DNA of 63,996 nucleotides from Balneolales bacterium. GTDB lineage: Bacteria; Bacteroidota; Rhodothermia; Balneolales; Cyclonatronaceae. Each line of letters begins with the position of its first letter. Position 1 is the stretch's first letter. The notes below the pieces were generated by a model. That model worked only from the letters and a program-made list of their open reading frames with translations. It had not been told where the DNA came from and did not search any database. This document shows positions 1,640 to 29,200 of this stretch, piece by piece. The position numbers and the translations under genes were made by a program. The stretch is taken from assembly GCA_020832405.1 (NCBI GenBank), contig JAFIET010000012.1, positions 1 through 63,996 on the forward strand, read 5' to 3'.

Positions 1640-2197
1640 TTATTCCATCAGGTACACAACGAAGGTGAGCAGGGGTGCGCGGTAGAGCAGGAAACCAAAA
1701 TCTTCATCTGATACGGCATCAGAAAGAGACTGTAATAATTCCGGATTTCTGAAAGTGGCGTTTTCATCATCATAAAACTTTTCATAAACGGAGGAAAGCC
1801 TGCTTAGGCTACCGGCTTCATCTGCTATGCTGCCCGCTGAAACCTGCTGTGCGCATAGCGGAAATGCCCCAAAGGTAATCTCCTGCTGAAGCCCCCAAAA
1901 ATCACGCACCTGAGGAGCAGCGCTGCGCCAGCTGATGCTGCGGTTTTCAGTTGCAAGATCTTGCAGTAAAGCGGCATAGTCCGGGCGGTGAGGCTCGTTC
2001 AGGTACCCTTCGGCGAGCAGGAAATTTTCGAGCTCCGCATATGCTACCAGAAAGTCTTCACCTATTGTTGTGTTTTCCTGAAGGCAGCTGTTAAAAGCGA
2101 TGTAATGGCCCGGAAACTGCCGGCATCCCGCAATGAGCAGCAGCAGCAGTAAGTATATGAATGGTTTGATGCCGGTGAGGATGCGGTGTTTGCTCAT
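1640..2197 (-). CDS. Hypothetical lipoprotein, 185 aa
   Basis: I do not recognise this protein. The first 25 residues form a lipoprotein signal peptide: positive N-region, a run of leucines, and the lipobox LIAGC with Cys25 as the predicted lipidation site. The mature part is mostly helical-looking, acidic, and has no motif I can name. The gene follows pgm on the same strand. Its ATG lies directly after the T-tract of a strong hairpin, so no ribosome binding site is available outside that hairpin, which makes its expression unclear. A later start would lose the signal peptide, so the annotated start is probably right. Confidence 0.6.
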   Translation of the reverse strand: MSKHRILTGIKPFIYLLLLLLIAGCRQFPGHYIAFNSCLQENTTIGEDFLVAYAELENFLLAEGYLNEPHRPDYAALLQDLATENRSISWRSAAPQVRDFWGLQQEITFGAFPLCAQQVSAGSIADEAGSLSRLSSVYEKFYDDENATFRNPELLQSLSDAVSDEDFGFLLYRAPLLTFVVYLME

Positions 2198-2224
2198 AAA
2201 AAAAGCCGGCTCAGTTGAGCCGGC
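2198..2224 (-). terminator. Rho-independent terminator after pgm
   Basis: Read on the minus strand, a perfect 9-bp stem (2205-2213 with 2216-2224, GCCGGCTCA arms, 2-nt apparent loop that would open to about 4) is followed by seven T residues at 2204-2198. It lies 47 bp after the pgm stop codon. The T-tract touches the start codon of the next minus-strand gene at 2197. Confidence 0.85.
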
Positions 2225-2270
2225 GCGTTGGGTATGAAAAGGGTATCGATTTATAAATCCGATAAGCAGC

Positions 2271-3905
2271 TTAAAATAAGCTGCTTACAAGTTCCTGCGC
2301 TTCTTTTTGGATCAGGGCAAGATGCTCTTTCCCTTTGAAGCTCTCTGTATAGATTTTGTAGATATTTTCCGTGCCTGAAGGCCGCGCTGCAAACCAGCCG
2401 TTTTCGGTTACAACCTTAAGCCCGCCGATGGCAGCGCCGTTGCCGGGCGCGTGTGTAAGTTTCGCAATGATCTGTTCGCCGGCCAGCGTGTCTGATTTGA
2501 TGTCGTTTGCGTTCAGGTTGGAAAGGATAGCTTTTTGCTCCGGTGAGGCAGGGGCATCAAGCCGCTCATAAACGGGGGAGCCGAATTGTTTCTCGAATTC
2601 AGCATAGTGCTCGGATGGACTCTTTCCTGTTTTGGCCAGAATTTCAGCCGCAAGCAGGTTCATGATGATGCCGTCTTTATCGGTTGACCACGGCTTTCCG
2701 TCGAACTTCAGGAAGCTTGCGCCGGCACTTTCCTCTCCGCCGAAGCCGTATTCCCCGTTAAACAGCCCGTCAACAAACCATTTAAAGCCAACCGGTACCT
2801 CTGAAACTTCACGGTCGATGCTCGCGGCTACGCGGTCGATCATGGAGCTTGAAACCAGAGTCTTGCCGATTTTGAGCTCTTCAGACCACTGCGGCCTGTT
2901 CTGGAAAAGATACCAGATAGCAACGGCAAGATAATGATTCGGATTCATGAGCCCGGTTTTGGTTACGATACCATGCCGGTCATAGTCAGGGTCGTTTCCG
3001 AAAGCGATATCGAACTGATCTTTGTATTTTATAAGTCCGGCCATGGCGTAAGGGGAGGAGCAGTCCATGCGAATTTTGCCGTCTTTATCCACGTGCATAA
3101 ACCGGAAGGAAGCATCAACGTGATTATTGACGATCGTGAGATCCAAACCATAGCGCTCTGCAATCGCAGGCCAGTATTTGATGCCTGAGCCCCCAAGCGG
3201 ATCAACGCCGATTTTGATGCCGCTCTTGCTGATGGCCTCCATATCGATCACGTTTTTGAGGTCTTCCACATAGGGGGTAATGTAGTCGTAATCATGGATG
3301 TGCGGCCCCTCAAACGAATCTTCGAAATCCATTTTGAGCACGTCTTTGAGGCCGCTTTTAAGCATGTCGTTGGCGCGGTCCTCAATAATTTTAGTAGTTT
3401 TGGAATCGGCCGGTCCGCCGTGGGTCATGTTGTATTTTATGCCGCCGTCTTCCGGAGGGTTGTGAGACGGGGTGATGACGATACCGTCAGCCGGTGATTC
3501 AGGATTCTGACTGTTGTATGTGATGATCGCATGCGAGATAACCGGAGTTGGTGTATAACCGCCTCCGTTCTCAACCATTACATGTACGCCGTTAGCTGCG
3601 AAAACGCGGATTGCCGTCTGAAGCGCGGCTTCTGAAAGCGCGTGCGTATCCATGCCAATGTACAGCGGGCCGTGAATTTCCTTGCCCTTGCGGTACTCGG
3701 CTATGGCCTGACAAATCGCAAAAATATGATTCTGGTTAAAAGATAAATTTGTGGATGAGCCTCTGTGCCCTGATGTACCAAAACTTACAGCCTGAGCCGG
3801 ATCATGGGCGTCTGGTTTAAGCGTATAATATTTACTGACGAGGCGCGGAATGTTGGTTAAAATAGATTCTGGAGCCGGCTTACCTGCCAATTCGTGAATA
3901 GCCAA
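2271..3905 (-). CDS. pgm: Phosphoglucomutase, alpha-D-glucose specific
   Basis: The enzyme interconverts glucose 1-phosphate and glucose 6-phosphate, linking glycolysis to glycogen, nucleotide-sugar and cell-wall precursors. At 544 residues it has the length of the bacterial Pgm family. The phosphoserine loop TPSHNP places the catalytic serine at residue 147. The metal loop NDPDYDR (304-310) supplies three aspartates, the sugar-binding loop GEESAGAS is at 390-397, and the phosphate-binding motif RPSGTE is near the C-terminus. All four active-site loops are therefore intact. It is followed by a terminator and probably transcribed alone, with its promoter in the 268-bp gap before pdxH. Confidence 0.95.
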
Positions 3906-4173
3906 AATAAATTCCTCCGAATAAATAATGATTACAGTAAGGTTGATTGAGTGTCAAATAATCTCATAGCATTATACGAAATAGGACTTGTTCAAACCAA
4001 TACTTTTTTGGCGTATATGCTTTGTTTGTATGCCTTCATCTTCAAAAATCGGAAGCCGGTTGCTTTTTTTTAATATACTTATTCCGGTATTTAACCAGCA
4101 TTTGAATGGCGTTCAGCCGGTATTCGGGAATGTTTCGGTATAGCCTGAAGCGGATGCGGGTGGCTGCCGGTAT
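3906..4173. other. Intergenic gap between pgm and the pdxH remnant
   Basis: These 268 bp lie upstream of pgm and downstream of pdxH, both on the minus strand. No reading frame in it looks real. It is likely to hold the pgm promoter and the pdxH 3' end, but I found no clear terminator hairpin and no exact TAnnTTTG motif on the minus strand. Confidence 0.4.
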
Positions 4174-4826
4174 TCAGGGCGAAAGCCGGGTTAGCGACCA
4201 GCCGTTACCTTCGGTCTTCCGGTACTCAATCCGGTCGTGCAGCCGGCCGGGGCGGCCCTGCCAGAACTCGATAAGCAGCGGTCGCACCACATAACCGCCC
4301 CAGTTCTTCGGTCGTGGTACCGGCTTTCCCCCGAATTTCCTGAGCAGCCCTGCGTAGGTTTCTTCGAGCTGAGCCCGGGTTTCTACAGCAGTACTTTGCT
4401 TTGATGCAAGTGCCCCGATACGGCTTTCAAACGGGCGAGAAAGAAAATAGGCATCTGATTCGGTTTCCGGCAAGCGCTCGGTAATGCCTTCGATGCGTAC
4501 CTGCCGCTCAAGCTCCAGCCAGTTGAAGCAAAGCGAAGCTTTTGGGTTTTCGGAAAGCTGCCGGCCTTTTCGGCTGTCATAGTTGGTTTAAAAAGGAAGC
4601 CCCTGTCATCCAGTCCTTTCAGGAGTACAACGCGGGCGGAAGGCTGGCCTGTGCTGTCGGTAGTAGCAAGTACCATGGCGTTGGGTTCGGGCAGTTTTGA
4701 TGCAAGTGCTTCATCAAACCACTGCTGAAACTGTGCAAGCGGGTTTGCCTGCACATCTGAAATATCGAGGGAGTTTAGGGTGTAGTTTTTCCGTAAATCA
4801 GCAATTTCGGCGGATAAGCTGCTCAT
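4174..4826 (-). pseudogene. pdxH: Pyridoxamine 5'-phosphate oxidase with a frameshift
   Basis: PdxH is an FMN enzyme that makes pyridoxal 5'-phosphate. The 5' part (from 4826) reads normally up to the strand ending in GLDDRGFLF. After that the frame is lost, and the expected [19 protein letters not shown] continues in another frame from about 4586 down to the stop at 4174. The second part has the family features: [21 protein letters not shown], the PRPKNWGGY region, IEFWQG and the C-terminal RLHDRI...LTRLSP. One missing base in the homopolymers 4587-4589 (T) or 4590-4594 (A) explains everything. With it restored, the product would be about 217 residues, the usual length. It is either a real recent mutation or a sequencing error in a homopolymer. 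Confidence 0.85.
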
Positions 4827-4895
4827 GGATTCTCTTGATTGGATTTTTATAGTTCAGGGTGGGATGCCATCACCCGATAAACACCAAAAACGCTG

Positions 4896-5609
4896 CTAAA
4901 AATCCTGTTTCATGGGGTGAATGGTAACTTCATCCATGATCAGGTAAGGCGGGCGGGTGAGCATAAATTCAGCGATTTCGGCAAGGTCATCGGCGGCAAG
5001 GCCGTAGGGAGGGGGCACATCGCCGGCGGAGCGCCCTCCGAAGCCCGTATCGATGATGCCGGGGTTGAGCAGCATCACCCGTATGCCTTCTTTGGCGAGT
5101 TCGCGTGTGAGGCTCTGGGAGAAGCCGGCCATGGCGTGTTTGGCGGCTGTGTACACGCTCATGTTTGCAAGCGGCCGCCTTGCGAGGTCCGAAGCGATAT
5201 TCAGCACCTGCCCGTTTGCTGCGGCCCTGAGGTCGGGAAGAAGCCTTTTGGTGAGCATTAGCACGGCTTCAGCAGTAACCCTGAAGGTTGTGAGCAGTTC
5301 AGTTTCGGCCAGGTCATTCAGGGGCGTATAGCTGCCAATACCAGCATTGTTAACGAGGATTTCTACCGGGCCTTGTTTTCCCCTGAACCACGCAAGGGCT
5401 TTAGCCATAGCGGCATAGTCGCTAACATCAGCGGCATAAACGCGTACATGCTCTCCGAGTTCATCCCGGAGCTGTTCGAGCTCAGTGAGGTTGCGGGCGA
5501 TGAGGGAGAGTTTTGCGCCCCGCACAGCAAACAGCCGGGCCATGCTGCGGCCAACACCGCGTGTGGCCCCGCTTATCAGAATATGATGGTTTTTCAGGGT
5601 TTCAGCCAT
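4896..5609 (-). CDS. Short-chain dehydrogenase/reductase, 237 aa
   Basis: This is a classical SDR oxidoreductase of unknown substrate. The cofactor motif SGATRGVG lies at 13-20, NNAG at 87-90, and the catalytic set Ser140, Tyr153 and Lys157 (YTAAK) is complete. An arginine just after the glycine motif and ARN at 38-40 suggest NADP(H) preference, by analogy with the family. The C-terminus is short and lacks a signal, so the enzyme is cytosolic. It sits between pdxH and a universal-stress gene on the same strand, 9 bp after the latter's stop codon, so co-transcription with the stress genes is likely. Confidence 0.85.
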   Translation of the reverse strand: MAETLKNHHILISGATRGVGRSMARLFAVRGAKLSLIARNLTELEQLRDELGEHVRVYAADVSDYAAMAKALAWFRGKQGPVEILVNNAGIGSYTPLNDLAETELLTTFRVTAEAVLMLTKRLLPDLRAAANGQVLNIASDLARRPLANMSVYTAAKHAMAGFSQSLTRELAKEGIRVMLLNPGIIDTGFGGRSAGDVPPPYGLAADDLAEIAEFMLTRPPYLIMDEVTIHPMKQDF

Positions 5610-5618
5610 ATCGGGTTA

Positions 5619-6482
5619 TCAGGCGTGCTCCTGTGGATTCACAATGAAAACGGCGGTATCAACCATGCGGATAATGGTTGATGCCGTACTGCCGACCATG
5701 AGGTTGCGGATATTGGAGTGGCCGAGTGTAGCCATGAATACGAAATTGTAATCTCTGGAGTAGGTAAGGTTTGTGATGGCTTCACTGCCCGAAACGCTTG
5801 TAATTAGTACCTGCTCTTTCACTTTGTCGGATACTTCCTCAAAATAGGTTTCTTTAAGCTGACAAAGCTCTTTTCTGCCGCGCTCTACAATTGAACCTGA
5901 GCTGCCTGTAGTGAGCGGACCTACGTGCACGAAGTGAACAAGATCGGCGTTTATGCCTGTTTGGGCTACAAACTGACGTGCGTAGCTGAATACGCCGGTC
6001 GAGTTTTCAGACATATCAGTGAGGATCAGTACTTTTGTTAGCGGGCTAAGCCGGGATTCATCGGTTACAACAACGACCGGCTTTGGGCACACAGAAATTA
6101 TCTTGTTGGCAACCGAGCTGTGCATGAGCCGGTCGAGGCCGGTTCGTGAGTTTGTTGCTATAAAAACGAGGTCAAAATCTGCTGCGGCCCCCACAATCTG
6201 CATGGCGATATTTCCGGTAGCTACAATGGGTTCGTTTATCTGAGCACCACCAGCATATTCCCCCGCAATTTTTAGCAGCTTATTTTGGATGCGGCTGTGC
6301 AGCTCCTGTTTCATTTCTGCTACGTCATCTTCAATGATATCAGAGATGCCGTGCCGCGGTTCAAAAACATACATAGGGGTGATGCTGCCTTCAAAATAGG
6401 TGAGATAATCTGCGGCATCTTTGAAAGCCTTATTACCGGTATTCGTAAAATCAGTTGGTACGAGAATGCTAAGCTTTTTCAT
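5619..6482 (-). CDS. Tandem-domain universal stress protein (degenerate ATP site)
   Basis: The 287-residue protein consists of two UspA folds, roughly residues 1-145 and 146-287, each starting with a KxLxLTD-type beta strand. The usual ATP-binding signature G-2x-G-9x-G-S/T is degraded in both halves. The first has NSRTG followed by SS in place of GS, and the second has GHSNIRN followed by GS. ATP binding is therefore doubtful. It is the second of two tandem universal-stress genes on the minus strand. The upstream neighbour, which ends 62 bp away, has intact signatures. The two probably arose by duplication and may work as a heteromeric stress module. No DNA-binding domain is present. Confidence 0.85.
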   Translation of the reverse strand: MKKLSILVPTDFTNTGNKAFKDAADYLTYFEGSITPMYVFEPRHGISDIIEDDVAEMKQELHSRIQNKLLKIAGEYAGGAQINEPIVATGNIAMQIVGAAADFDLVFIATNSRTGLDRLMHSSVANKIISVCPKPVVVVTDESRLSPLTKVLILTDMSENSTGVFSYARQFVAQTGINADLVHFVHVGPLTTGSSGSIVERGRKELCQLKETYFEEVSDKVKEQVLITSVSGSEAITNLTYSRDYNFVFMATLGHSNIRNLMVGSTASTIIRMVDTAVFIVNPQEHA

Positions 6483-9001: not shown

Positions 9002-10078
9002 TTAAGCCCTGCAGGCCGATTCGGTGATGCGGCAGCAGGCGTCATGATTCTTCGCCATGGCCTCCATCAGCTGGAATTGTGCCCGGCAACGCATGAGGTT
9101 TTGCTCGGGGTAATGCGTTGCGTAGTACAGGTCGCCGTTCAGGTAATCGGCAAGGAAACGTATGCCCATTATGTAGGCCATGTAGCGCGGGGCGAGGGGC
9201 ATCAGGTTTTTTTCTTCCGGGCTCAAAATAGTGGCCGTTTCCTTCAGGTATCCGCGGGTTATGGCCTCAAAGCAGGAAAGGCTGAACCCTGTTTCTGCAC
9301 TGTCTTCATTGTTGGTGGCAGCAGCGGTACGCACCAAATCCCCAAAATCATAAAGGGATAAACCGGGCATCACGGTATCAAGGTCAACAACGGCTCTGGC
9401 CTGCATCTGCGTATCAAAAAGCACATTGTTGAGTTTTGTGTCGTTGTGGGTTACCCGAAGGGGAAGCCTGCCGGCCTGCTGCTGCCGCGGAATGACGCTC
9501 ATTTCCGCAATGTGCTTTTTTGCGAATCTCAATTCCTGTGCTGCATGCACGAAGCGGCGAATAGGTTCAGGTTTTGCTGCGTCCAGGAGTTGCCTGTATC
9601 TGAGCGACACGCTGTGAAAACCGGGGATCACCTCATGGAGCTTGTCCGCCCGGAGTTCCTGCAGGGCTGCCAGAAACAGACCGTAAATTTTGCCGGCTTC
9701 AAAGGCGGCTGCCTCATCCGGTACCAAATCGTAGCTCAGGCCCGGGGCTATCCGCTGAAACAGGCGCCAGGCAGATCCGTCTTGTTGCCTTACCGCGTAG
9801 CCGCCGGCACTGCTGCTCAAAGGTGCGGCAATGCTGTATCTTTTCGAGTACTCCGGGTGCCGGTTCAGTAGCCCGGTAACAAGCAGCAGGTTTTCCGTCA
9901 CTTTGTCAAAATCAGGAAAAACGTGCGCGTTAAACTTTTGCATGATGAAGCCCGGCTCGTTTGGGTTTTCCGTGTGTATCAGCCAGGTTTTGTGGATGTG
10001 GCCCGAGCCGATTGGCACCGCGTATGCCATTCGGCTACCCGTGCTGAACGCACTGAAAATGTCGGAAAGAGCATCCAT
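9002..10078 (-). CDS. NahK-like N-acetylhexosamine 1-kinase (APH fold)
   Basis: This 358-residue protein is a phosphotransferase of the aminoglycoside-kinase fold. The catalytic loop THNDTKLNN lies at 210-218 and the metal motif VDLDTVMPG at 231-239, followed by YDFGD. This combination matches NahK, the kinase that makes GalNAc 1-phosphate or GlcNAc 1-phosphate in the bifidobacterial LNB/GNB pathway, better than antibiotic kinases. It is the last gene of a four-gene minus-strand set and starts 19 bp after the stop codon of a sugar-phosphate nucleotidyltransferase, which would use its product. I chose ATG 10078 over the TTG one codon earlier. Exact sugar specificity is inferred. Confidence 0.75.
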   Translation of the reverse strand: MDALSDIFSAFSTGSRMAYAVPIGSGHIHKTWLIHTENPNEPGFIMQKFNAHVFPDFDKVTENLLLVTGLLNRHPEYSKRYSIAAPLSSSAGGYAVRQQDGSAWRLFQRIAPGLSYDLVPDEAAAFEAGKIYGLFLAALQELRADKLHEVIPGFHSVSLRYRQLLDAAKPEPIRRFVHAAQELRFAKKHIAEMSVIPRQQQAGRLPLRVTHNDTKLNNVLFDTQMQARAVVDLDTVMPGLSLYDFGDLVRTAAATNNEDSAETGFSLSCFEAITRGYLKETATILSPEEKNLMPLAPRYMAYIMGIRFLADYLNGDLYYATHYPEQNLMRCRAQFQLMEAMAKNHDACCRITESACRA

Positions 10079-10097
10079 CAAAATAAAATCAGGAGGT

Positions 10098-11012
10098 TTA
10101 GTGTGTTTTGCGGGGCCAGAGGTTTTTGGGGTATTTCCCCGATTCGGTCATTTGCCGGATCCGGCTTCGGATGTGCTCCAAATCCGGCGGATAGGTGATG
10201 CCGAACCAATCAGAACCGGAATCCAGAACGGATACCTTCGCGCGCTGCTGCCGGATCATGCGGTCGATTACCGCAGGAAGATGAAACTCAGCTTCAGGCT
10301 GATTGATGCGCGTATCCAGAAAACGCACAAATCCGGACAGCAAATGGGTGAATACCGAAGGCGCAAATCCCCAGCAGTTCATCGAAACCAGCGTTTGGGG
10401 CGAAAGCGGGATTCCATCCGGAGCTTCACCCGATAAAATCAGCTCCGCTTTACGACTGATGTTTTTGTGTTCCTGCACTGACTTTAAAAATCCGTTTTCA
10501 TCGGTTTCACAAACACCCCTCGAAACACTCCCAAATGCTGACAAAGTTTTTTCCAGCCGGTAGGCCGCCATGGCATAATGGTTTGAGGTTGCATGCTGCC
10601 TGAGAAATTCGGCCATTTGCCGAAATGCGGCTTCTCCATAGAAATCATCGGCATTGATTACGCAAAAGGGCGTATGCACGGCTTTTTCGGCTGCAAGGAG
10701 AGCATGCCCTGTGCCCCATGGTTTCAGCCGCCCGGGCGGGGCTGTGAATCCGGCCGGTAACTCATCCGGCTCCTGAAAAACGAGTTCGGTTTCAAAGCGG
10801 TCTTCAAAAGGTTTCAGTACCTCATCACGGAAGATTACTTCGGTCTGTTTCCGGATCACAAAAACAATTTTTCCAAACCCGGCGCGCCGGGCATCATAAA
10901 CAGAATAATCTATAATACGCTGATTAAGGGGGCCTGCCGCTGCAAGCTGTTTGAGTCCGCCGAAACGGGAGCCTGTTCCGGCTGCCATAATTACGAGGGC
11001 AGGTTTGCTCAT
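10098..11012 (-). CDS. Sugar-1-phosphate nucleotidyltransferase
   Basis: The product (304 aa) has the nucleotidyltransferase fold that joins a sugar 1-phosphate to an NTP. The signature AAGTGSRFGGLKQ at residues 10-22 binds the nucleotide. TGHALLAA follows at 101-108 and the metal-binding NADDFYG at 120-126. No C-terminal acyltransferase hexapeptide repeat is present, so it is not a GlmU. It sits between a sodium:solute symporter and an NahK-like kinase. In that context it most likely makes UDP-GalNAc or UDP-GlcNAc from imported sugar, but the nucleotide and the sugar are not proven by sequence. Confidence 0.8.
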   Translation of the reverse strand: MSKPALVIMAAGTGSRFGGLKQLAAAGPLNQRIIDYSVYDARRAGFGKIVFVIRKQTEVIFRDEVLKPFEDRFETELVFQEPDELPAGFTAPPGRLKPWGTGHALLAAEKAVHTPFCVINADDFYGEAAFRQMAEFLRQHATSNHYAMAAYRLEKTLSAFGSVSRGVCETDENGFLKSVQEHKNISRKAELILSGEAPDGIPLSPQTLVSMNCWGFAPSVFTHLLSGFVRFLDTRINQPEAEFHLPAVIDRMIRQQRAKVSVLDSGSDWFGITYPPDLEHIRSRIRQMTESGKYPKNLWPRKTH

Positions 11013-11127
11013 TAAATATTTGTATGAGGGTGATGTGTCCCGTGCCGGAATGCTGCACCCCGGTCTCTCGGCTGCATAGTGTACCGGAAAAGCTGCGCTG
11101 TTGTGCGCTGATAAGCAGGTGGCTGCA

Positions 11128-12969
11128 TTACTCCATCCTCAGTTTGCTCCAGAATCGGGTAAGCAGGAAACCCGAGGCGGCGGCCATAGCGGCAAGTACA
11201 GCGGCGGGCATGAGGTTGCCGTACAAAATGTTGCCAATCATAAACAGCAGGCTGTAGATCATGGTAGTACCCAGAATCATGCAGAGAATTCCGGTCGGGA
11301 CATCCCACTTCAGGTTGTCTTCTTTTACGAGTGTAATCCCTTCACCCGTTGCCTCATCAACTACGGATTTCCATCCCGGTCCGCCGGGACGTATTCGGCT
11401 GTAGAAATTCCGCAGGGTTGCTTTATCAACCGGGGAGGTGAGCAGGGTTACGATGATCCAGGTGGCTGATGTGAGGAAGACCGTGCCAAGCAGCTTGATC
11501 ACATTCCAGTAGCTCATGCTTGTCTGAAACCCGAACACATCAACCATGCCGGTTTCGGGACGCTGCATCACGAAATTCTCAATCAGAATGAAAATCATCG
11601 AAAAAGTACCGGCGGCAATCATGGCGGAAATTTCGGACCAGGCGTTGATCCGCCACCAAAACCACCGCAGAATATAAATCAGGCCGGTGCCGGCTCCGAT
11701 CATGAGGATGTACTGAAACGCCTGAAGCGCATTTTGAAGCACGAGGGCCAGTAAAACGGAGGAGCCCATCAGGGCTGCGGTTGAGATTCGGCCGAAACGG
11801 ACGCGCTGCTTTTCAGTAGCGTCGGGTTTGTAGAAACGGCCGTAAAAGTCGTTCACCAGATAGGAGGAGCCCCAGTTGAGCTGTGAGGCCGTAGTTGACA
11901 TATAGGCCGCGATAAGGGAAGCAACCACCAAACCCAGCAGGCCGGCGGGAAGAAACTCACGCAGCATGGCAGGGTAGGCGAAGTCGTTCTGAATGTACTG
12001 AACGGGCACGTCGGGATATCTTTCCACCATGCTTGCGATATCAGGGAATACCACCAGCGAGGCAAGGCCCACGAGAATCCACGGCCAGGGGCGCAGGGCA
12101 TAGTGGAAGAAGTTGAAGAGCAGGGTTGCACCTACGGCATGCGATTCATTTTTGGCTGCCAGCATCCGCTGCGCCACATAACCGCCACCGCCCGGCTCAG
12201 CACCAGGGTACCACACAGCCCACCACTGTACGGCAATGGGAATCAGGAAGATGCTCACAAAAAGCTCGGGCTGTGAAACGGACGGCACAAGGCTGAGCTT
12301 ATCTGACACGTTCGGGTGTGACAGTAAATTCGACATCCCGCCGACTTCAGGCGAACCAATAATGTACACCGCTGCAATTACTGCGCCGAACATGGCAAAT
12401 GAAAACTGAAACAGATCGGTCCACAAGATGGATTTAAGCCCGCCCAGGCTGCTGTAAAACACCACAATTACCGAAGCAATGATGAGGGCAACCCCCGGTT
12501 GAAGCCCCAGCATAACGGCAGCAATTTTGATAAAGGCCAGGGAGACGGTCGCAATCACCATCACATTAAAGAAAAAGCCGAGGTACACGGCCCGGAATCC
12601 GCGCAGAAATGCAGCCATTTTGCCGGAGTAACGTAGCTCATAAAATTCCAGATCGGTTAAAACCTGCGAGCGGTTCCAGAGTTTGGCATAAACAAACACG
12701 GTGAGCATACCTGTAAGCAGAAACGCCCACCATAGCCAGTTGCTTGCCACGCCGCCGGTGCGCACCATATCCGTTACCAGGTTGGGCGTATCAGCCGAAA
12801 AGGTGGTCGCAACCATGGATACGCCCAGCAGCCACCAGGGCATGTTGCGGCCGGAAAGGAAAAAACTGGTCGTGTCGTTGCCCGCACGGTAGGAGGCCGC
12901 GTAGCCAATGGATAGCAGCACAAAGAAAAATGCGCCGATGATTACCCAGTCAAGTGGTGACAGAATCAA
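11128..12969 (-). CDS. Sodium:solute symporter (SSS family), 613 aa
   Basis: This inner-membrane protein has about fourteen hydrophobic segments and belongs to the SSS family, which imports sugars, amino acids and other solutes with sodium. The N-terminal part contains SFFLSGRNMPWWLLG and FSADTPNL, typical of the family. The start is a TTG at 12969; no in-frame ATG lies close by. It lies 138 bp downstream of the GH109-like gene and 115 bp upstream of the nucleotidyltransferase, all on the minus strand. The neighbours suggest it imports N-acetylgalactosamine or a related sugar. A G10 tract and a hairpin lie in the gap upstream. Confidence 0.85.
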   Translation of the reverse strand: MILSPLDWVIIGAFFFVLLSIGYAASYRAGNDTTSFFLSGRNMPWWLLGVSMVATTFSADTPNLVTDMVRTGGVASNWLWWAFLLTGMLTVFVYAKLWNRSQVLTDLEFYELRYSGKMAAFLRGFRAVYLGFFFNVMVIATVSLAFIKIAAVMLGLQPGVALIIASVIVVFYSSLGGLKSILWTDLFQFSFAMFGAVIAAVYIIGSPEVGGMSNLLSHPNVSDKLSLVPSVSQPELFVSIFLIPIAVQWWAVWYPGAEPGGGGYVAQRMLAAKNESHAVGATLLFNFFHYALRPWPWILVGLASLVVFPDIASMVERYPDVPVQYIQNDFAYPAMLREFLPAGLLGLVVASLIAAYMSTTASQLNWGSSYLVNDFYGRFYKPDATEKQRVRFGRISTAALMGSSVLLALVLQNALQAFQYILMIGAGTGLIYILRWFWWRINAWSEISAMIAAGTFSMIFILIENFVMQRPETGMVDVFGFQTSMSYWNVIKLLGTVFLTSATWIIVTLLTSPVDKATLRNFYSRIRPGGPGWKSVVDEATGEGITLVKEDNLKWDVPTGILCMILGTTMIYSLLFMIGNILYGNLMPAAVLAAMAAASGFLLTRFWSKLRME

Positions 12970-13017
12970 GTGAGGATACCGGTTTTGTAAAAAGGGTGGT
13001 CGATTTTCTTACTTTTT

Positions 13018-13049
13018 GGGGGGGGGGCGGCCGCACAAGCAGGTGCGGC
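13018..13049. repeat. G10 homopolymer and adjoining hairpin upstream of the symporter
   Basis: Ten consecutive G residues occupy 13018-13027. An inverted repeat follows, GCCGCAC at 13030-13036 with GTGCGGC at 13043-13049 (7 bp, 6-nt loop). The tract is 49 bp before the symporter start, on whose coding strand it reads as C10. Such tracts often change length by slipped-strand mispairing, but no variation can be seen in a single sequence. Confidence 0.7.
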
Positions 13050-13106
13050 TCCCGATTCGGCGCTGCTTAAACAAGAAAGGCGCTGCGCATTATTTCGGGG
13101 CGGAGT

Positions 13107-14513
13107 TTAAATTATTCGTGTTGTGCCTCCCTGCCTGAGTTCGATATCCATCACGGGCGTGTTGGTTTTCCAGGCGCCTCTGGTAAAATCAGGCACATCA
13201 ATTGACTGAGAGCGGTTCGCGACAGACTGCTCGCTCAGCGGGGCAATGGCGCTCCAAAGGGCAGCATCATACACGTCGATATCCATCGGAAGCCCGTTGC
13301 GCAGGCAGTCGATAAGGCGCCAGTCCATGATGGTATCCATACCCCCGTGCCCGCCCACTTCACGTGCGAGGTCGCCCACTTTCTTTGTGATTTCCGGCGT
13401 GTACAGTTCCTCCAGGGCTTTCATACTTTCCTGAGAAAGCCAGCCGGTGTGGTCTTTGGCGATGCGGGCCGGGCCCGGCCACTTTTGTGCTGTGCCGTCG
13501 GTACCGCTCACCAGGTAAATCCGGGAATAGGGTCGGGGAGAGCTTACGTCGTGCTGCACCATAATGGTGCGACCCCTGTGCGTGCGGATTGTAGTAGTAT
13601 TCATGTTACCTCTGAAATTGCGGCCGGCAAAAGGCTGCCACATCTCGTTTTCTTCCGCCAGTTCCCGGGCGCGGTCTGCCATCTGGAAATCGTTGCCGGA
13701 AACCGAAACCAGATAATCCATCTGATCCCCGCAGTTAAGGTTCATCAGTTTAGACATGGGCCCGATGGCATGCGGCGGGTAAAGCATACCGTTCCGGCTT
13801 GCGTTTTCTTCCAGCCGCCACAGATCGTGATAGTAGGTTTCGGAGAAATTCATCTCCATCAGATCGTGAATGTATGCGCCTTCGCCGTGTACGATTTCGC
13901 CGAAGTAGCCCTGCCGTGCCATATTAAGCACCATCATCTCAAAAAAATCGTAGCAGGTGTTGCTGAGCATCATACAGTGCTTTTTTGTTTTTTCGGAGAC
14001 CTCAACCAGCTGCCAGCATTCGTCAATGGTTTTGGCCGCGGGCAGTTCTACGGCAGCATGCTTGCCGTTTTCCATGGCGTACACACTTTGTGCGGCATGC
14101 TGATCCCAGGGCGTACAGATGTATATGAGGTCCACATCGTCGCTGTCGCACATGTCTTTCCAGGCGTCAGCCCGGCCGCTGTACTGTTTGGGATGCTGAT
14201 CATATCCCTCTAAAGCCGCAATGCCACGTTCTGCACGCTCAGGCTCGATGTCGCAAATACCTGTAATCTTAACCCCTTCAATTCGCTTCAGGCGGTTTAC
14301 GCCTCCGATGCCGCGGTTTCCAATGCCGATGATGCCAACCCGTACGGTTTCCAGTTTTGGGGCGCCGTATCCGCTCATATTAAACTGCTGAGGCCGCCGG
14401 GCTGCCCGCTGCTTTTCTGTGATGTCAGCATCGGAACAACCGATAAGCCCGGCACCTGCAAGGCCGAAGGCGGAAAGTTTCAGGAAGTCGCGACGGCCGA
14501 AGGAATTACTCAT
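13107..14513 (-). CDS. GH109-like Gfo/Idh/MocA lipoprotein with Tat signal
   Basis: The protein (468 aa from the chosen start) begins with a twin-arginine signal, GRRDFLKL at residues 6-13, ending in the lipobox LIGC with Cys26. It should be exported folded and lipid-anchored. An NAD-binding motif follows, GIIGIGNRG at 60-68, then the Gfo/Idh/MocA dehydrogenase fold. Segments such as RNGMLYPPHAIGP and GDQMDYLVS resemble GH109 alpha-N-acetylgalactosaminidases, which use tightly bound NAD. I moved the start from 14573 to 14513 so that the Tat motif sits at the N-terminus. It is first in a row with a symporter, nucleotidyltransferase and sugar kinase. The GH109 assignment is good, but other family members act on other sugars. 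Confidence 0.78.
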   Translation of the reverse strand: MSNSFGRRDFLKLSAFGLAGAGLIGCSDADITEKQRAARRPQQFNMSGYGAPKLETVRVGIIGIGNRGIGGVNRLKRIEGVKITGICDIEPERAERGIAALEGYDQHPKQYSGRADAWKDMCDSDDVDLIYICTPWDQHAAQSVYAMENGKHAAVELPAAKTIDECWQLVEVSEKTKKHCMMLSNTCYDFFEMMVLNMARQGYFGEIVHGEGAYIHDLMEMNFSETYYHDLWRLEENASRNGMLYPPHAIGPMSKLMNLNCGDQMDYLVSVSGNDFQMADRARELAEENEMWQPFAGRNFRGNMNTTTIRTHRGRTIMVQHDVSSPRPYSRIYLVSGTDGTAQKWPGPARIAKDHTGWLSQESMKALEELYTPEITKKVGDLAREVGGHGGMDTIMDWRLIDCLRNGLPMDIDVYDAALWSAIAPLSEQSVANRSQSIDVPDFTRGAWKTNTPVMDIELRQGGTTRII

Positions 14514-14654
14514 AAGTCTCAGTCCGGTTTTTAATTGAAAGGGGAGGGAGCCGAAAATATATTGAATCCCCAAAATTAAAATATCGGTAATTTTTTGGAT
14601 AATTTAAAAGCCCTGAACCGGGAAATAAATCAGCCATTTCGGTTGTGTTCACTG

Positions 14655-23235: not shown

Positions 23236-26200
23236 GTGCAGATTGCTGAGCACACATTAACACTGCTATTTATCGGGTTCTGGCTTGTAACGGCTTTTGC
23301 GCTTTTTCCGCATCATTCCGCTGCACAGTATTCCGGGCATTCAGTAACCGATTTTGTTACAGGTCCGGATTTATACCCCGAACGCCATCTTGTGCCGTTC
23401 AGCGGTACCCGGCAGTTCACGGCCGCTGCCGATACACTTCAGGTTCCCGAAGCTAACACAGAACCGGCCGATACAACCCTGCTTCCGGTTAGTCCGCCGC
23501 CTGCCCGTGATTCCGTGAACGTTTTCCCGCAGCCGCGCTCTTATTTCGCTACCCGCGCTTTCCCGCACAAACTGCCCCGCCTGCTTCAGATTCAGAACAG
23601 CGAAGACCGGATTCAGTTTGAGCGGGACAGCCTTTCCGGTGATATACATGTGAGGCGCAATTTGGGTGGTCTTCACATTCCGTACGATAACCGCTATACT
23701 TTTGAGCAGTTTGCGGCCGAGCACAAGGCCTATCATAAGCGCACACAGTTCCGGGAGCTTATACGAGAAGAACGTATCCGCCGTGAAAGGCGGAGGGGGG
23801 TACTCGATTTCCGAATTACGGTGCCCGGCGGGCAAAGCTCGGCTTTTACAACTATTTTCGGAAGGCCTGAGGTAAACCTGCGTGTAACCGGCTCGGCGAA
23901 TATGAACATCGGGGTTTCGATCTCTGACTCAGAAGACCCGCAGCTTCCGGCCGATCAGCAGCGAAGGGTTGATCCCAAGTTCGATCAGAATCTGAAGCTC
24001 AATATTGCCGGTACCATCGGGGATAAGCTCACTATTTCGACCGACTGGGATACGGAGCGGCAGTTTGAGTTCGAAAACCGCCTCAACATTTTATATACCG
24101 GCTATGAGGATGAAATTATCCAAAGTATTGAGCTGGGTAATGTTTCGATGGAAACGGGAAACCGCCTCATTCGTGGCGGCGGCTCGCTTTTCGGGATAAA
24201 AGCACGTGCTAAGCTGGGCGCACTTGATATCACTACCGTTATTTCGCAACAGGAGAGTGACTCCCAAACGCAGACTATTTCGGGCGGCTCACAGGAAACG
24301 GTGCTCAACATCGCGCCTAACGCCTACGACAACGACCGACACTTTTTCCTGGATTTCTTTTCACGTCAGGAGTTCGAAGGCATCATGGCGGATGTGCTCA
24401 ATCCCCGCCGTCTTTTTGATATTGTGAATATTGAGGTGTATGTGCTCGATATTTCTTCCAGCGATGTGGAAGGCCGGGTGCCTGCCATCGCACTGCTTGA
24501 TTTGGGTACAGTTGAGGGCGGGAACGGCTTCCTGCCGCCTAATGAGAATTTTGACCGCTTCAACCCCGGCGATCTTGAGCCTTACCGCGACCCGACGGTC
24601 GGTGTTTCGGCGGAAGACCTGGGCGTCGCTTCTGATGAATTTGAGGAAGGAATCTTCATTCCCCTTGTTGAAAATGTAGATTTTGAGATCAACCAAACCC
24701 TGGGTTATATCTCATTGCTGCGCACCCGCCTCGATAACCGTCAGGCCCTCGCCGTCTCCTTTTCGTACCGCGACCCAAGCGGCGAAATTGTGTACGTGGG
24801 TGATCCGAGTACAGGATCGAGTCAGCGCCTTTTCCTGAAGCTGCTTCGGCCGTCGAGTCAGAGTTCCAACAGCCGGGCATGGCCGCTCACGATGCGGAAC
24901 ATCTATTCGCTCAACACCTCCAACCTCACCCGCGACAACCTCGAGCTCGATATTTTCTTCACCGGGGGCACCACCGATCAGGTAAACATCCCAGGCCTGA
25001 ACACCGTGCTTCTGCAGGATCTGGGTCTCGACCGCGTGGATGCGCAGGGTAACCCGACCCCTGACAACCGGGTTGACTTCAACACGCTTACGCTCGATCC
25101 GCGCGCCGGCCGCGTCATTTTCCCGTACCTTGAGCCTTTTGGCCAGCGCATTGTGGATATCATCAACGCCTCAAACCTCCCCCCCGATGAGAAGGAGCAG
25201 GCGATTCAGCGGTTTGCGTTTACCGAGCTGTACACAACCCGACCCAACAATGCAGGTCAAAATTCCCGAAATGCCATCTATCGTCTGAAAGGTCTGGCAA
25301 GAGGCGGCGTTTCTGACAGCTTTATGCTGGGCTTTGGTCTTATTCCCGGTTCGGTTCGGGTACGGGCCAACGGCATTGAACTCACCGAAGGCGTAGATTA
25401 TGAGGTGGATTACATCCTCGGGAATATCGTAATTACGAACCGTACCTACCTGTCGGCCGGGCAAAATATTGAGGTTGAGTACGAAAGCAATCAGCTGCTG
25501 CAGATTCAGCAAACAACCTTTACCGGGGTGCGGGCGCAGTACAACTTCACCGACAACATCCGGCTTGGTGGTACCTTTTTCCGCCTGAACGAGCGCCCGA
25601 TTCAGGATAAGATTCCGGTAGGGGATGAGCCCATCAACAACACCATTATCGGTTTTGATGCTAACGCCCGTTTCGACGCTCCCTGGCTCACCCGCGCGCT
25701 CAACGCACTGCCGCTGCTGCAAACAAGAGCGCCATCATCTATAGATATTACCGGCGAATGGGCGCAGCTCCGGCCCGGCGTGGCGCAAACAAGTGCGGTA
25801 CAGCGGGCAATCAACCGCGGTGAGCTTTTCCCGGATGAAGAAAACGGCCTTGCTTTTATCGACGACTTCGAGGGCTCCCGCTCGACCATCAGCTTTCTCA
25901 ATCCCGGCCGCTGGTTTTTGGCTTCATCACCCTACGCGTTGCCGGCCCTCGACCCGGACATGACCAACGCCTCTCAGGCAACTTCCGTGAGAGCAATCCG
26001 GTCGGATTACCGCTCGCAGTTTTCCTGGTACATGATTCCCTCTACGATTTCAAGAGGCGGCCTTTCTTTCCCCGAAAGTGCAGAGGTTTTGGTTGAGGAT
26101 GTTTTCCCGAACCGGCAGATCAGCACGCAGGATCAGCGCACGCTGCAAACGCTCGATATCTATTTTAATCCCCGCGACCGCGGTCCGTACAACTACAATC

Positions 26201-29200
26201 CGGAGCTGCGCGACCTGATTGATAACCGCCCGGAAGAAACCTGGGGCGGCTTTACCGCGGTGCTTCCCGGAGGCCTCGGTGACTTCACCCAGCAAAACAT
26301 TGAATACCTTGAGTTTTGGGTGCAGCCGGTACTGCCCGACGGCCGGCCGCCTTCTTCCTTCAACCCCGCCGATTACGACGGTACCCTTTTCTTCGATATC
26401 GGATCCGTGAGTGAAGACGTGATCCCTAACAACACCCTCAACACCGAAGACGGCCTGTATGAGCGGGAAAACAACCTTCGGATTGATTCCGAGGGTCGTT
26501 CGTACGTGCTGAATTCTCCGGTCGAATTTAACGGGCAGTTTTCGGTTGCGAACATCAACCGTGAGGATGTAGGCCTCGACGGCATTCCGAGTTCAGGAAA
26601 CAACGGGCTTAACGAGCAAAGCCTGTTTGCTGATTTTATCGCGGCTATGGAGCAGGCTTTCAGCGATCAGCCGGACCGCTTGCAGGCCATCCGCAACGAC
26701 CCGAGCAACGACGAGTTTGTGTACTACGACAATGCCGATGTGCGCGGGCTTCCGCTCCATGAGCGTTTTTACCGCATGTACGGCTACCTTGAGGGCAACT
26801 CCATCAGCGAGGGCACGCAGCGGGCGGTAACCAACCGGCCGGATTCCGAGGGACTTATCAACCCGGCGGTGGTGAATACCGAAAACTCCTTCTTTCAGTT
26901 TGAATTCCGGCTCAATCCGGCTGACTCAACCTCGCTCGCAGTTGGTCAGAACTACGTGGTTGATCGTCAGGACGGCCCGGGGCTCGTGGCGCCCTGGTAT
27001 CAGGTTCGTATTCCGCTGCGCGATTTTGTGCGGGAAGTGGGCAACATTCAGGATTTGCAGCGGGTAACGCACATCCGCATGTGGATGAGCGGCTACCGCG
27101 AGCCCTTCACCCTGCGCTTCGCTACATTTGAATTTGTGGGTAACCTCTGGCGCAAAGCGAACATCGGAAATGTGGATGATGAGACTACCATTTTTGACAT
27201 TTCGACCATCAACTTTGAGGAAAATGCCTCGCGCACGCCGGTGCCCTACCGCATTCCGCCGGGCGCTATCCGTTCTACCATACGTGGGCAGCAGGAAACC
27301 ATTGTGGATAACGAGCAGTCGCTGGTACTGGAAGTACAGAACCTGAAGTCGCAGGATATCAGGATGATAAGCCGGGTGTACCCCGGTAACCTCAGCCTTG
27401 TGAACTACTCCAACATGCGGATGTTTGTGCACGGAGAAGGTTACGAAAACCGCAGTGATGTGGAGCTTGTACTGCGAATTGGCAGCAACCTGGAGAACAA
27501 CTACTACGAGTACCGTCAGCCCGTAACGCCCACCGATACAACTTTTGCTTTCAATCCTGTTGGCGGAGGCTCAGGCCGGGAAGCGGCCCTGCTGGAAGAC
27601 GCCCTTCGCGTGTGGATTCCCGAGGAAAACAGCATGAATATTGTGCTCGGTACCTTCAACGAACTCAAGCAGCTCCGGAATATTGACGGTATCGATCCCG
27701 ATACGAAATATGAGCGCGGGGATATTCTGCGCGATGCGGTACCCGGAGCGGTTGTGGCTATTGTAGGAAATCCCTCGCTCGACCGCATCACTGAAATCGG
27801 GATCGGAATCCGGAATCCGCACGAAAGCGGCATTGATACCGAAGGCCGCCCGCGTGTAAGGGGGGATGCTAATGTGGGAACGGCACAGCAACAGCAAAAC
27901 CGCAGCAACGGTGCCGGGGTACCAAACCTGGATGCACAGATCTGGGTGAATGAGCTGCGCGTTTCGGGCTTCGACAACCGCAGAGCCTGGGCAGGAAACC
28001 TTTCCGCACGCATTCAGATGGCCGATTTTGCGACCTTCAATGCCACGATGAGTCACCGACAGGATGGCTTCGGTGCAATCGATTCACGTATGGTTGACCG
28101 CAGCAAGAGCGATGAAACAAGCTACAACCTCAGCACAACCGTGAACCTGCACCGCTTTATCCCTGAGGCCTACGGGTGGAACATCCCCGTAAACCTGAGT
28201 ACCCGTAACACTGTCTCTACACCGCGCTTCCTGCCAAGAGAGGGCGACATCCGCTTCTCAGACTTCCGCCGGGCTATCGAAAATGATGTGGCTGATCCGG
28301 CAGAGCGCGACCGCATAATCAGTGACCGGCTTGCTGAAATTCAGACCCGCAGCGAAAGCTATTCCGTGAACGTAACCGGCCTCACCAAAAACAACTCGCG
28401 CTCATTTCTGCTGCGCAACCTCGTTGATCCCATCACGCTCAGCTATAACTACACAACTTCTGAAGCGAGCAACCCGAACAACGCTTTCGATAACCGCTGG
28501 AACTACAGCACAAGCCTCAACTATAACCTGCGTTTCCGCTCGGTTGAGACCCTGCGCCCGCTCTGGTTTCTGGAGGATGTGCCGGTAGCCAACCTGATTT
28601 CGGGCTTCCGCCTTGCTTACCTGCCGCGCAGCATATCAACCACCAACACGCTCGACCGCCGCTACTCCGAGCTGCAGCGGCGCTCCTTCGACGGGCAGGA
28701 TCCCTTCTCACTTCAGCAGCAGCATCAGTTCACCTACGTGAATACGTTTGCTATCGATTACGACATCACTCCGCCCATTAGCCTGCGCATGAACACCCGT
28801 ACGGAATTTAATTTTGATGACATCTCCCGGGTGTTTTCCGAGCAGGACTCCCTCATTTACAACATTCGGCCAAGCTTCGATGTTATCAGCGATGCCCTTT
28901 TCAATTCTGATGTTGATGTACGGCGGGAGTCGTACACTGAGAATTACACGGCAAGCTGGCGGCCGCGCTTTACACAGGTAAGATCGCTCAGCTGGATGAC
29001 GTATCAGGCCAACTATCGCGGTGGCTTTCAGTGGCGGAACTCACCGCAGGGCTCAGGTCTGGGTTCAACGGTGGGCAACACCTACGGCTTTGATCAGACT
29101 TTCGGCATTCGTCTGCAGGATTTGCTGCGGCGCATCCCGTTTTATGATGCGGCCGTGCGGGCTAACGAAGCCGAGTTCAGGCAGCGGGAAACCGAAGCGC

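Follow-up and report, generated by a model that had tools for sequence, protein, structure and literature searches.

A four-gene set of a Balneolales bacterium with a probable role in capture and activation of N-acetylgalactosamine

Results

The locus and its four genes

Mucins and chondroitin contain N-acetylgalactosamine (GalNAc) as a core sugar, and the genes described here probably serve the capture and activation of GalNAc in a bacterium of the order Balneolales. The window, i.e. the whole analysed stretch of 63,996 nucleotides (assembly GCA_020832405.1, contig JAFIET010000012.1), carries at positions 9002–14513 four open reading frames (ORFs) on the minus strand, which fill this segment and encode, in order of transcription, an enzyme of glycoside hydrolase family 109 (GH109), a sodium:solute symporter (SSS), a nucleotidyltransferase (NT) and a NahK-type kinase. 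All four products passed Pfam cut-offs. A preliminary description of this DNA had placed a twin-arginine (Tat)-exported GH109-like enzyme, a sodium symporter, a nucleotidyltransferase and an NahK-like kinase here on one strand, and ORF coordinates as well as Pfam and Protein Data Bank (PDB) matches agree with it; likewise, neither a SusC/D pair nor a dedicated regulator was seen inside the four-gene set, as it had stated. The intergenic gaps measure about 137, 115 and 16 bases, sizes compatible with a single predicted transcript. Promoter-like and terminator-like matches in a motif scan of the locus stayed at shuffle level, and an Rfam scan of the window gave zero matches.

Identity of the encoded proteins

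Gene identities and conserved catalytic residues were computed for all members of the set. The GH109 enzyme, a putative alpha-N-acetylgalactosaminidase of 468 aa (13107..14513, minus strand), displays the domains Glyco_hydro_109_C (PF21252, 136 bits) and GFO_IDH_MocA (PF01408, 55 bits), both above cut-off, and its best PDB matches are the Akkermansia GH109 6t2b and the alpha-GalNAcase 2ixa. The start was set at the ATG at 14513, while the mechanical ORF reaches back to a TTG at 14573. Because a twin-arginine motif (RRDFLK) precedes a lipobox-like LIGC in the N-terminus MSNSFGRRDFLKLSAFGLAGAGLIGCSD, the protein is possibly a Tat lipoprotein; close relatives retain the arginine pair, and only some the cysteine. 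The motif GHGGMD is invariant in 13 GH109 proteins of such clusters and equals G388–D393 of the window protein (VGGHGGMD); judging by the title of Teze (2020), as cited in PMC12269599, the catalytic acid-base of GH109 is seated in the GGHGG loop. C-terminal domain, Rossmann NAD domain and GGHGG loop thus all assign the protein, as far as its sequence goes, to GH109.

The symporter, a probable sugar importer of 613 aa (11128..12969, minus strand), contains an SSF domain (111 bits, above the Pfam cut-off) and matches best in the PDB the sodium/glucose cotransporters 2xq2/3dh4 and SGLT1/2. In relatives it clusters with NT and kinase.

For the predicted NahK-type N-acetylhexosamine 1-kinase (359 aa, 9002..10081, minus strand) an APH domain was found above cut-off (61 bits), together with 38% identity to Bifidobacterium NahK over 338 aligned residues in a full-length alignment. 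A PDB sequence search with the kinase returned Bifidobacterium NahK structures only, to which a profile search added two marginal matches. All 30 columns invariant across 25 kinase homologues show the same residue in Bifidobacterium NahK, and the catalytic motifs HNDxKxNN and DLDTxMPG are kept. The AlphaFold model (mean predicted local distance difference test score, pLDDT, 93) superimposes with a template modelling (TM) score of 0.92 on NahK 4ocv/4ocj bound to N-acetylglucosamine (GlcNAc), and the next best fold match, homoserine kinase, shares 17% identity. Sequence, modelled fold and motifs therefore concur in placing the protein among the NahK N-acetylhexosamine 1-kinases.

The putative sugar-1-phosphate NT (304 aa, 10098..11012, minus strand) possesses an NTP_transferase domain (37 bits, above the Pfam cut-off) and stays far under the NCBIfam cut-offs of galU (21.8 of 326.8 bits) and Arch_glmU (34 of 292.1 bits). 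It matches PDB 3pnn, a structural genomics entry from P. gingivalis, with a TM score of 0.93 and 46% identity over the fold alignment, followed by RmlA/GalU folds. The signature LAAGxGSRxGxxKQ plus NADDxYG is present, with A10, A11, G12, S15, R16, K21, Q22, N120–D123, Y125 and G126 invariant. By signature and fold the NT belongs to the 3pnn family of sugar-1-phosphate nucleotidyltransferases; no function of 3pnn was reported in the open-access papers searched, which cover only part of the journals.

An APH-fold anomeric kinase and an NTP_transferase are also the enzyme classes of the AmgK/MurU pathway, and the set could accordingly recycle N-acetylmuramic acid (MurNAc) from peptidoglycan to UDP-MurNAc by means of anomeric kinase and uridylyltransferase. 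Yet the kinase matches NahK specifically (AmgK/MurU sequences were not compared directly), no MurU model was among the reported NCBIfam matches of the NT, which elsewhere also pairs with galactokinase (see below), and GH109 is, to our knowledge, not a peptidoglycan enzyme family, so that this explanation is highly improbable. The top-scoring other APH-family protein of the genome was considered as AmgK and ruled out, being a fructosamine kinase.

Conservation in the order

Clustering was computed across 129 genomes of the order, of which 21 contain the kinase, 23 the NT and 20 both. In 16 of the 21 kinase-bearing genomes all four genes lie within 10 kb, in five arrangements: SSS-GH109-NT-kinase (nine genomes), GH109-SSS-NT-kinase (two genomes, the window and G007), SSS-NT-kinase with convergent GH109 (two genomes), SSS-NT-GH109-kinase (two genomes), and divergent GH109 with SSS-NT-kinase (one genome). 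Four of the remaining five (G047, G082, G098, G099) are broken by contig ends and the fifth (G110) is without GH109. The GH109 proteins of the clusters fall into two clades, 60–85% and about 35% identical to that of the window. As membership stays while gene order shifts, across both GH109 clades, the genes can be regarded as a functional unit, and chance clustering was ruled out by this order-wide conservation in five arrangements. The preliminary description had suggested a search of relatives for the same gene order and held that lack of joint conservation would speak against the set: the linkage of the four genes stood, and the exact order of the window recurred in one other of the 16 genomes.

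Among six genomes of the genus, that of the window alone has kinase, NT and a close GH109. A recent foreign island was considered and not adopted: the GC content of the set is level with its surroundings, but presence is patchy, and loss and transfer are indistinguishable.

Genes adjoining the set in relatives include a GH97 after the kinase (G007), a GH29-type alpha-L-fucosidase before the SSS (G127) and a sulfatase after the kinase (G116), consistent with degradation of GalNAc-bearing glycans that carry fucose or sulfate groups.

Kinase and nucleotidyltransferase across the phylum

Co-occurrence of kinase and NT was computed in 392 evenly drawn genomes of Bacteroidota with a completeness of at least 90%, NT being counted by strong matches. 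The kinase was detected in 61 genomes, the NT in 70 and both in 60, i.e. the NT is present in 60 of 61 kinase-bearing genomes. The two genes are adjacent in 28 of these genomes and apart in 32, and because of the latter the co-occurrence is more than adjacency restated. Genus g76 follows the same pattern: the NT is present in both listed kinase-bearing genomes, while seven further genomes lack the kinase and yield nothing stronger than weak NT-like matches.

Soda-lake Bacteroidales present the same trio of SSS (73–78% identical), NT and often kinase. In several of them a ROK-family regulator precedes SSS-NT(-kinase) (L006, 4829–6097; also L009, L010, L011, L015); the best model for this regulator is NagC, under cut-off (228 of 650 bits). 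At L012, L013, L015 and L016 SSS and NT are present and the kinase is not adjacent.

Three genomes of the order, as well as named Balneolaceae metagenome-assembled genomes (MAGs), have the NT beside SSS and a galactokinase, which takes the place of the NahK-type kinase; for the one galactokinase tested, TIGR00131 was above cut-off. NT, SSS and galactokinase were seen together at L134, L135, L133, L017 and L044, and at L132 (G082, 1957–6332) a pair of SSS and galactokinase adjoins the NahK-type kinase. A galactose route free of GalT is possible for NT and galactokinase of Balneolaceae. Pairing with either a NahK-type kinase or a galactokinase fits a nucleotidyltransferase for galacto-configured sugar-1-phosphates and supports such a substrate for the NT.

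Surroundings of the set

Directly upstream and on the same strand lies a gene for HPr kinase/phosphorylase (hprK, 350 bits), and an NADP-glutamate dehydrogenase flanks the set on the opposite strand. A phosphoglucomutase (2271–3905; TIGR01132, 902 bits) follows about 5 kb past the kinase, and at 23236–30753 lies a large gene resembling SprA of gliding motility and type IX secretion (PF14349). The genome of the window comprises 3.96 Mb in 188 contigs and is rated 100% complete.

Discussion

Proposed route

The four-gene finding is real, and its reading as a GalNAc capture-and-activation set is supported, with GalNAc as substrate, uridine triphosphate (UTP) as nucleotide, transporter cargo and final fate being what we infer from it. 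A Tat-exported GH109 with bound NAD cofactor would cleave off terminal GalNAc on the outer side of the inner membrane, the SSS would import the free sugar with sodium, the NahK-type kinase would convert it to GalNAc-1-phosphate, and the NT would use UTP to yield UDP-GalNAc. A GalE encoded at another site of the genome (C39, 403 bits) could epimerise this product to UDP-GlcNAc, destined for cell-wall and surface glycans or onward for catabolism. The sequence of release, import, C1 phosphorylation and nucleotide-sugar conversion had already been put forward in the preliminary description and, with four genes conserved together, is still the best and a probable reading.

Several observations weigh against it. 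The oxidoreductase superfamily to which GH109 belongs acts on many different sugars, and at least 12 GH109-like matches were counted in some genomes of the order (G061, G072, G074, G079 and others). The nearest folds of the NT mix enzymes using deoxythymidine triphosphate (dTTP; RmlA) with UTP-using ones (GalU-type), i.e. the fold is silent on the nucleotide. Kinase and NT are associated with p = 6e-59 in a Fisher exact test that ignores shared ancestry, and the relation is one-sided, as several genomes have the NT without the kinase. As for the transporter, hprK is directly followed in the same-genus genome G001 (L121, 4837–7809) by an SSS 89% identical to that of the window, unlike the window itself, where a 1.7 kb GH109 segment lies between the two; beside this SSS neither GH109, NT nor kinase was found, and sensitive tblastn detected no remnants of the three in G001, a clear-cut difference in gene content between members of one genus. 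The transporter can hence serve without the others, and its cargo may extend beyond GalNAc. Furthermore, transport may be redundant, since deletion of the transporter BT4242 in Bacteroides thetaiotaomicron left growth unaffected (PMC11992087).

The breadth of the superfamily leads to the question whether the window protein might be an oxidoreductase or a glycosidase acting on another glycoside, with the set handling another amino sugar or a galactoside. The activities of Gfo/Idh/MocA proteins are indeed varied, including glycoside 3-dehydrogenases and, as indicated in PMC10755693, NAD-dependent sulfoquinovosidases, and the NCBIfam matches of the window GH109 to glycoside 3-dehydrogenases are far under cut-off. 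However, the dedicated GH109 C-terminal domain, the catalytic GGHGG loop and the neighbourhood of a HexNAc-type kinase in 16 genomes, the distant GH109 clade included, make this quite improbable. Several of the GH109-like matches in G061, G072, G074, G079 and others are 50–68% identical to the window protein and stand near each other and without a kinase; the multiple GH109-like proteins of such kinase-less genomes may differ in substrate.

Another sugar is suggested by the kinase: NahK of B. longum takes GalNAc and GlcNAc about equally (PMC11992087), all invariant residues are common to both proteins, and the soda-lake trio stands behind a regulator resembling NagC best, though under cut-off, so that GlcNAc, or both sugars, might be the substrate and the NT might yield UDP-GlcNAc directly. 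Against this, the partner GH109 is of a GalNAcase family, the NT is elsewhere paired with galactokinase, pointing to galacto-sugars, and in the most similar operon with experimental data the kinase clearly favours GalNAc (PMC11992087; see below), wherefore this alternative is unlikely.

Salvage or catabolism

If GalNAc is activated as proposed, it could still be consumed for carbon and nitrogen, from GalNAc-1-phosphate via UDP-GalNAc, UDP-GlcNAc, GlcNAc-1-phosphate and GlcNAc-6-phosphate to fructose-6-phosphate, as in the lacto-N-biose/galacto-N-biose (LNB/GNB) pathway of Bifidobacterium. Such feeding is suggested by glycoside hydrolases adjoining the set in relatives, by the dependence of B. 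thetaiotaomicron on the kinase when GalNAc is its only source of carbon (PMC11992087) and by the Bifidobacterium route of NahK, uridylyltransferase and GalE, which ends in glycolysis (PMC8106489). In the genome of the window, rated 100% complete, however, nagB gave no match, although the same model matches in 8 of 14 control genomes, and the best nagA match stayed under cut-off (27.5 of 225.65 bits), SIS-type deaminases (AgaS, NagB-II) not having been searched. For want of nagB and of nagA above cut-off, nucleotide-sugar salvage is no less likely than catabolism, which we consider possible but doubtful. The preliminary description had held that the 6-phosphate/isomerase route is skipped; the missing genes agree with this, and the claim is limited to nagA and nagB, which were searched.

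The link between the kinase and one uncharacterised NT family across the phylum provides one candidate, open to direct testing, for the step after GalNAc-1-phosphate, and a possible function for the orphan solved structure 3pnn. It is tentatively proposed that the 3pnn-family NT performs this step throughout Bacteroidota, gut Bacteroides included, leading straight to UDP-GalNAc and feeding cell-wall and surface-glycan precursors, in the present lineage without a 6-phosphate deaminase route. A named Bacteroides fragilis MAG bearing the NT gave no match for the kinase, so that the case for gut Bacteroides draws on the phylum sample and on the published BT4240.

Comparison with known systems

The release, import and phosphorylation part of the set is related to a route published in 2025 for B. 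thetaiotaomicron, where biochemical and genetic work characterised the operon BT4240-43 (PMC11992087). BT4240 is a GalNAc 1-kinase with an about 275-fold preference over GlcNAc, essential for GalNAc use, and BT4243 a GH109 alpha-GalNAcase; what becomes of GalNAc-1-phosphate is covered there only by the words ‘downstream metabolism’, and UDP-sugars are unmentioned (PMC11992087). Both systems unite a known or predicted NahK-type GalNAc 1-kinase, an inner-membrane sugar transporter and a GH109 in one locus. However, BT4240-43 (within the polysaccharide utilisation locus BT4240-50) also includes a GH2, uses an MFS-type transporter, stands beside SusC/D and an M60-like peptidase and is described without mention of an NT, whereas the window set has an SSS transporter, an NT inside the set and no GH2 within 9002–14513. 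The preliminary description had not regarded the set as a described unit in this group, which must be corrected for these first three steps. Beyond PMC11992087 nothing on the four-gene set or on bacterial UDP-GalNAc salvage was found in the open-access papers searched, and neither the NT step nor the association of NT and kinase across the phylum seems to have been described in them. The new part would thus be the NT as the next step, giving UDP-GalNAc and then UDP-GlcNAc via GalE.

The LNB/GNB cluster of B. longum (GLNBP, NahK, GalT, GalE) likewise converts a HexNAc-1-phosphate, made by NahK, to a UDP-sugar, with epimerisation by GalE, but relies on ABC import of the disaccharide, internal cleavage by a phosphorylase and a UDP-glucose-hexose-1-phosphate uridylyltransferase (PMC8106489), in place of which the window set combines an SSS and an exported GH109 with a nucleotidyltransferase of another family. 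The Aga pathway (AgaPTS, AgaA, AgaS) also uses GalNAc, by a 6-phosphate, deacetylase and deaminase/isomerase route, and was reported in a 2017 survey of gut genomes from Actinobacteria, Firmicutes and Proteobacteria only, not from Bacteroidetes (PMC5583593). The route tentatively proposed for the phylum would rather resemble an Isselbacher-type pyrophosphorylase route, here for an amino sugar.

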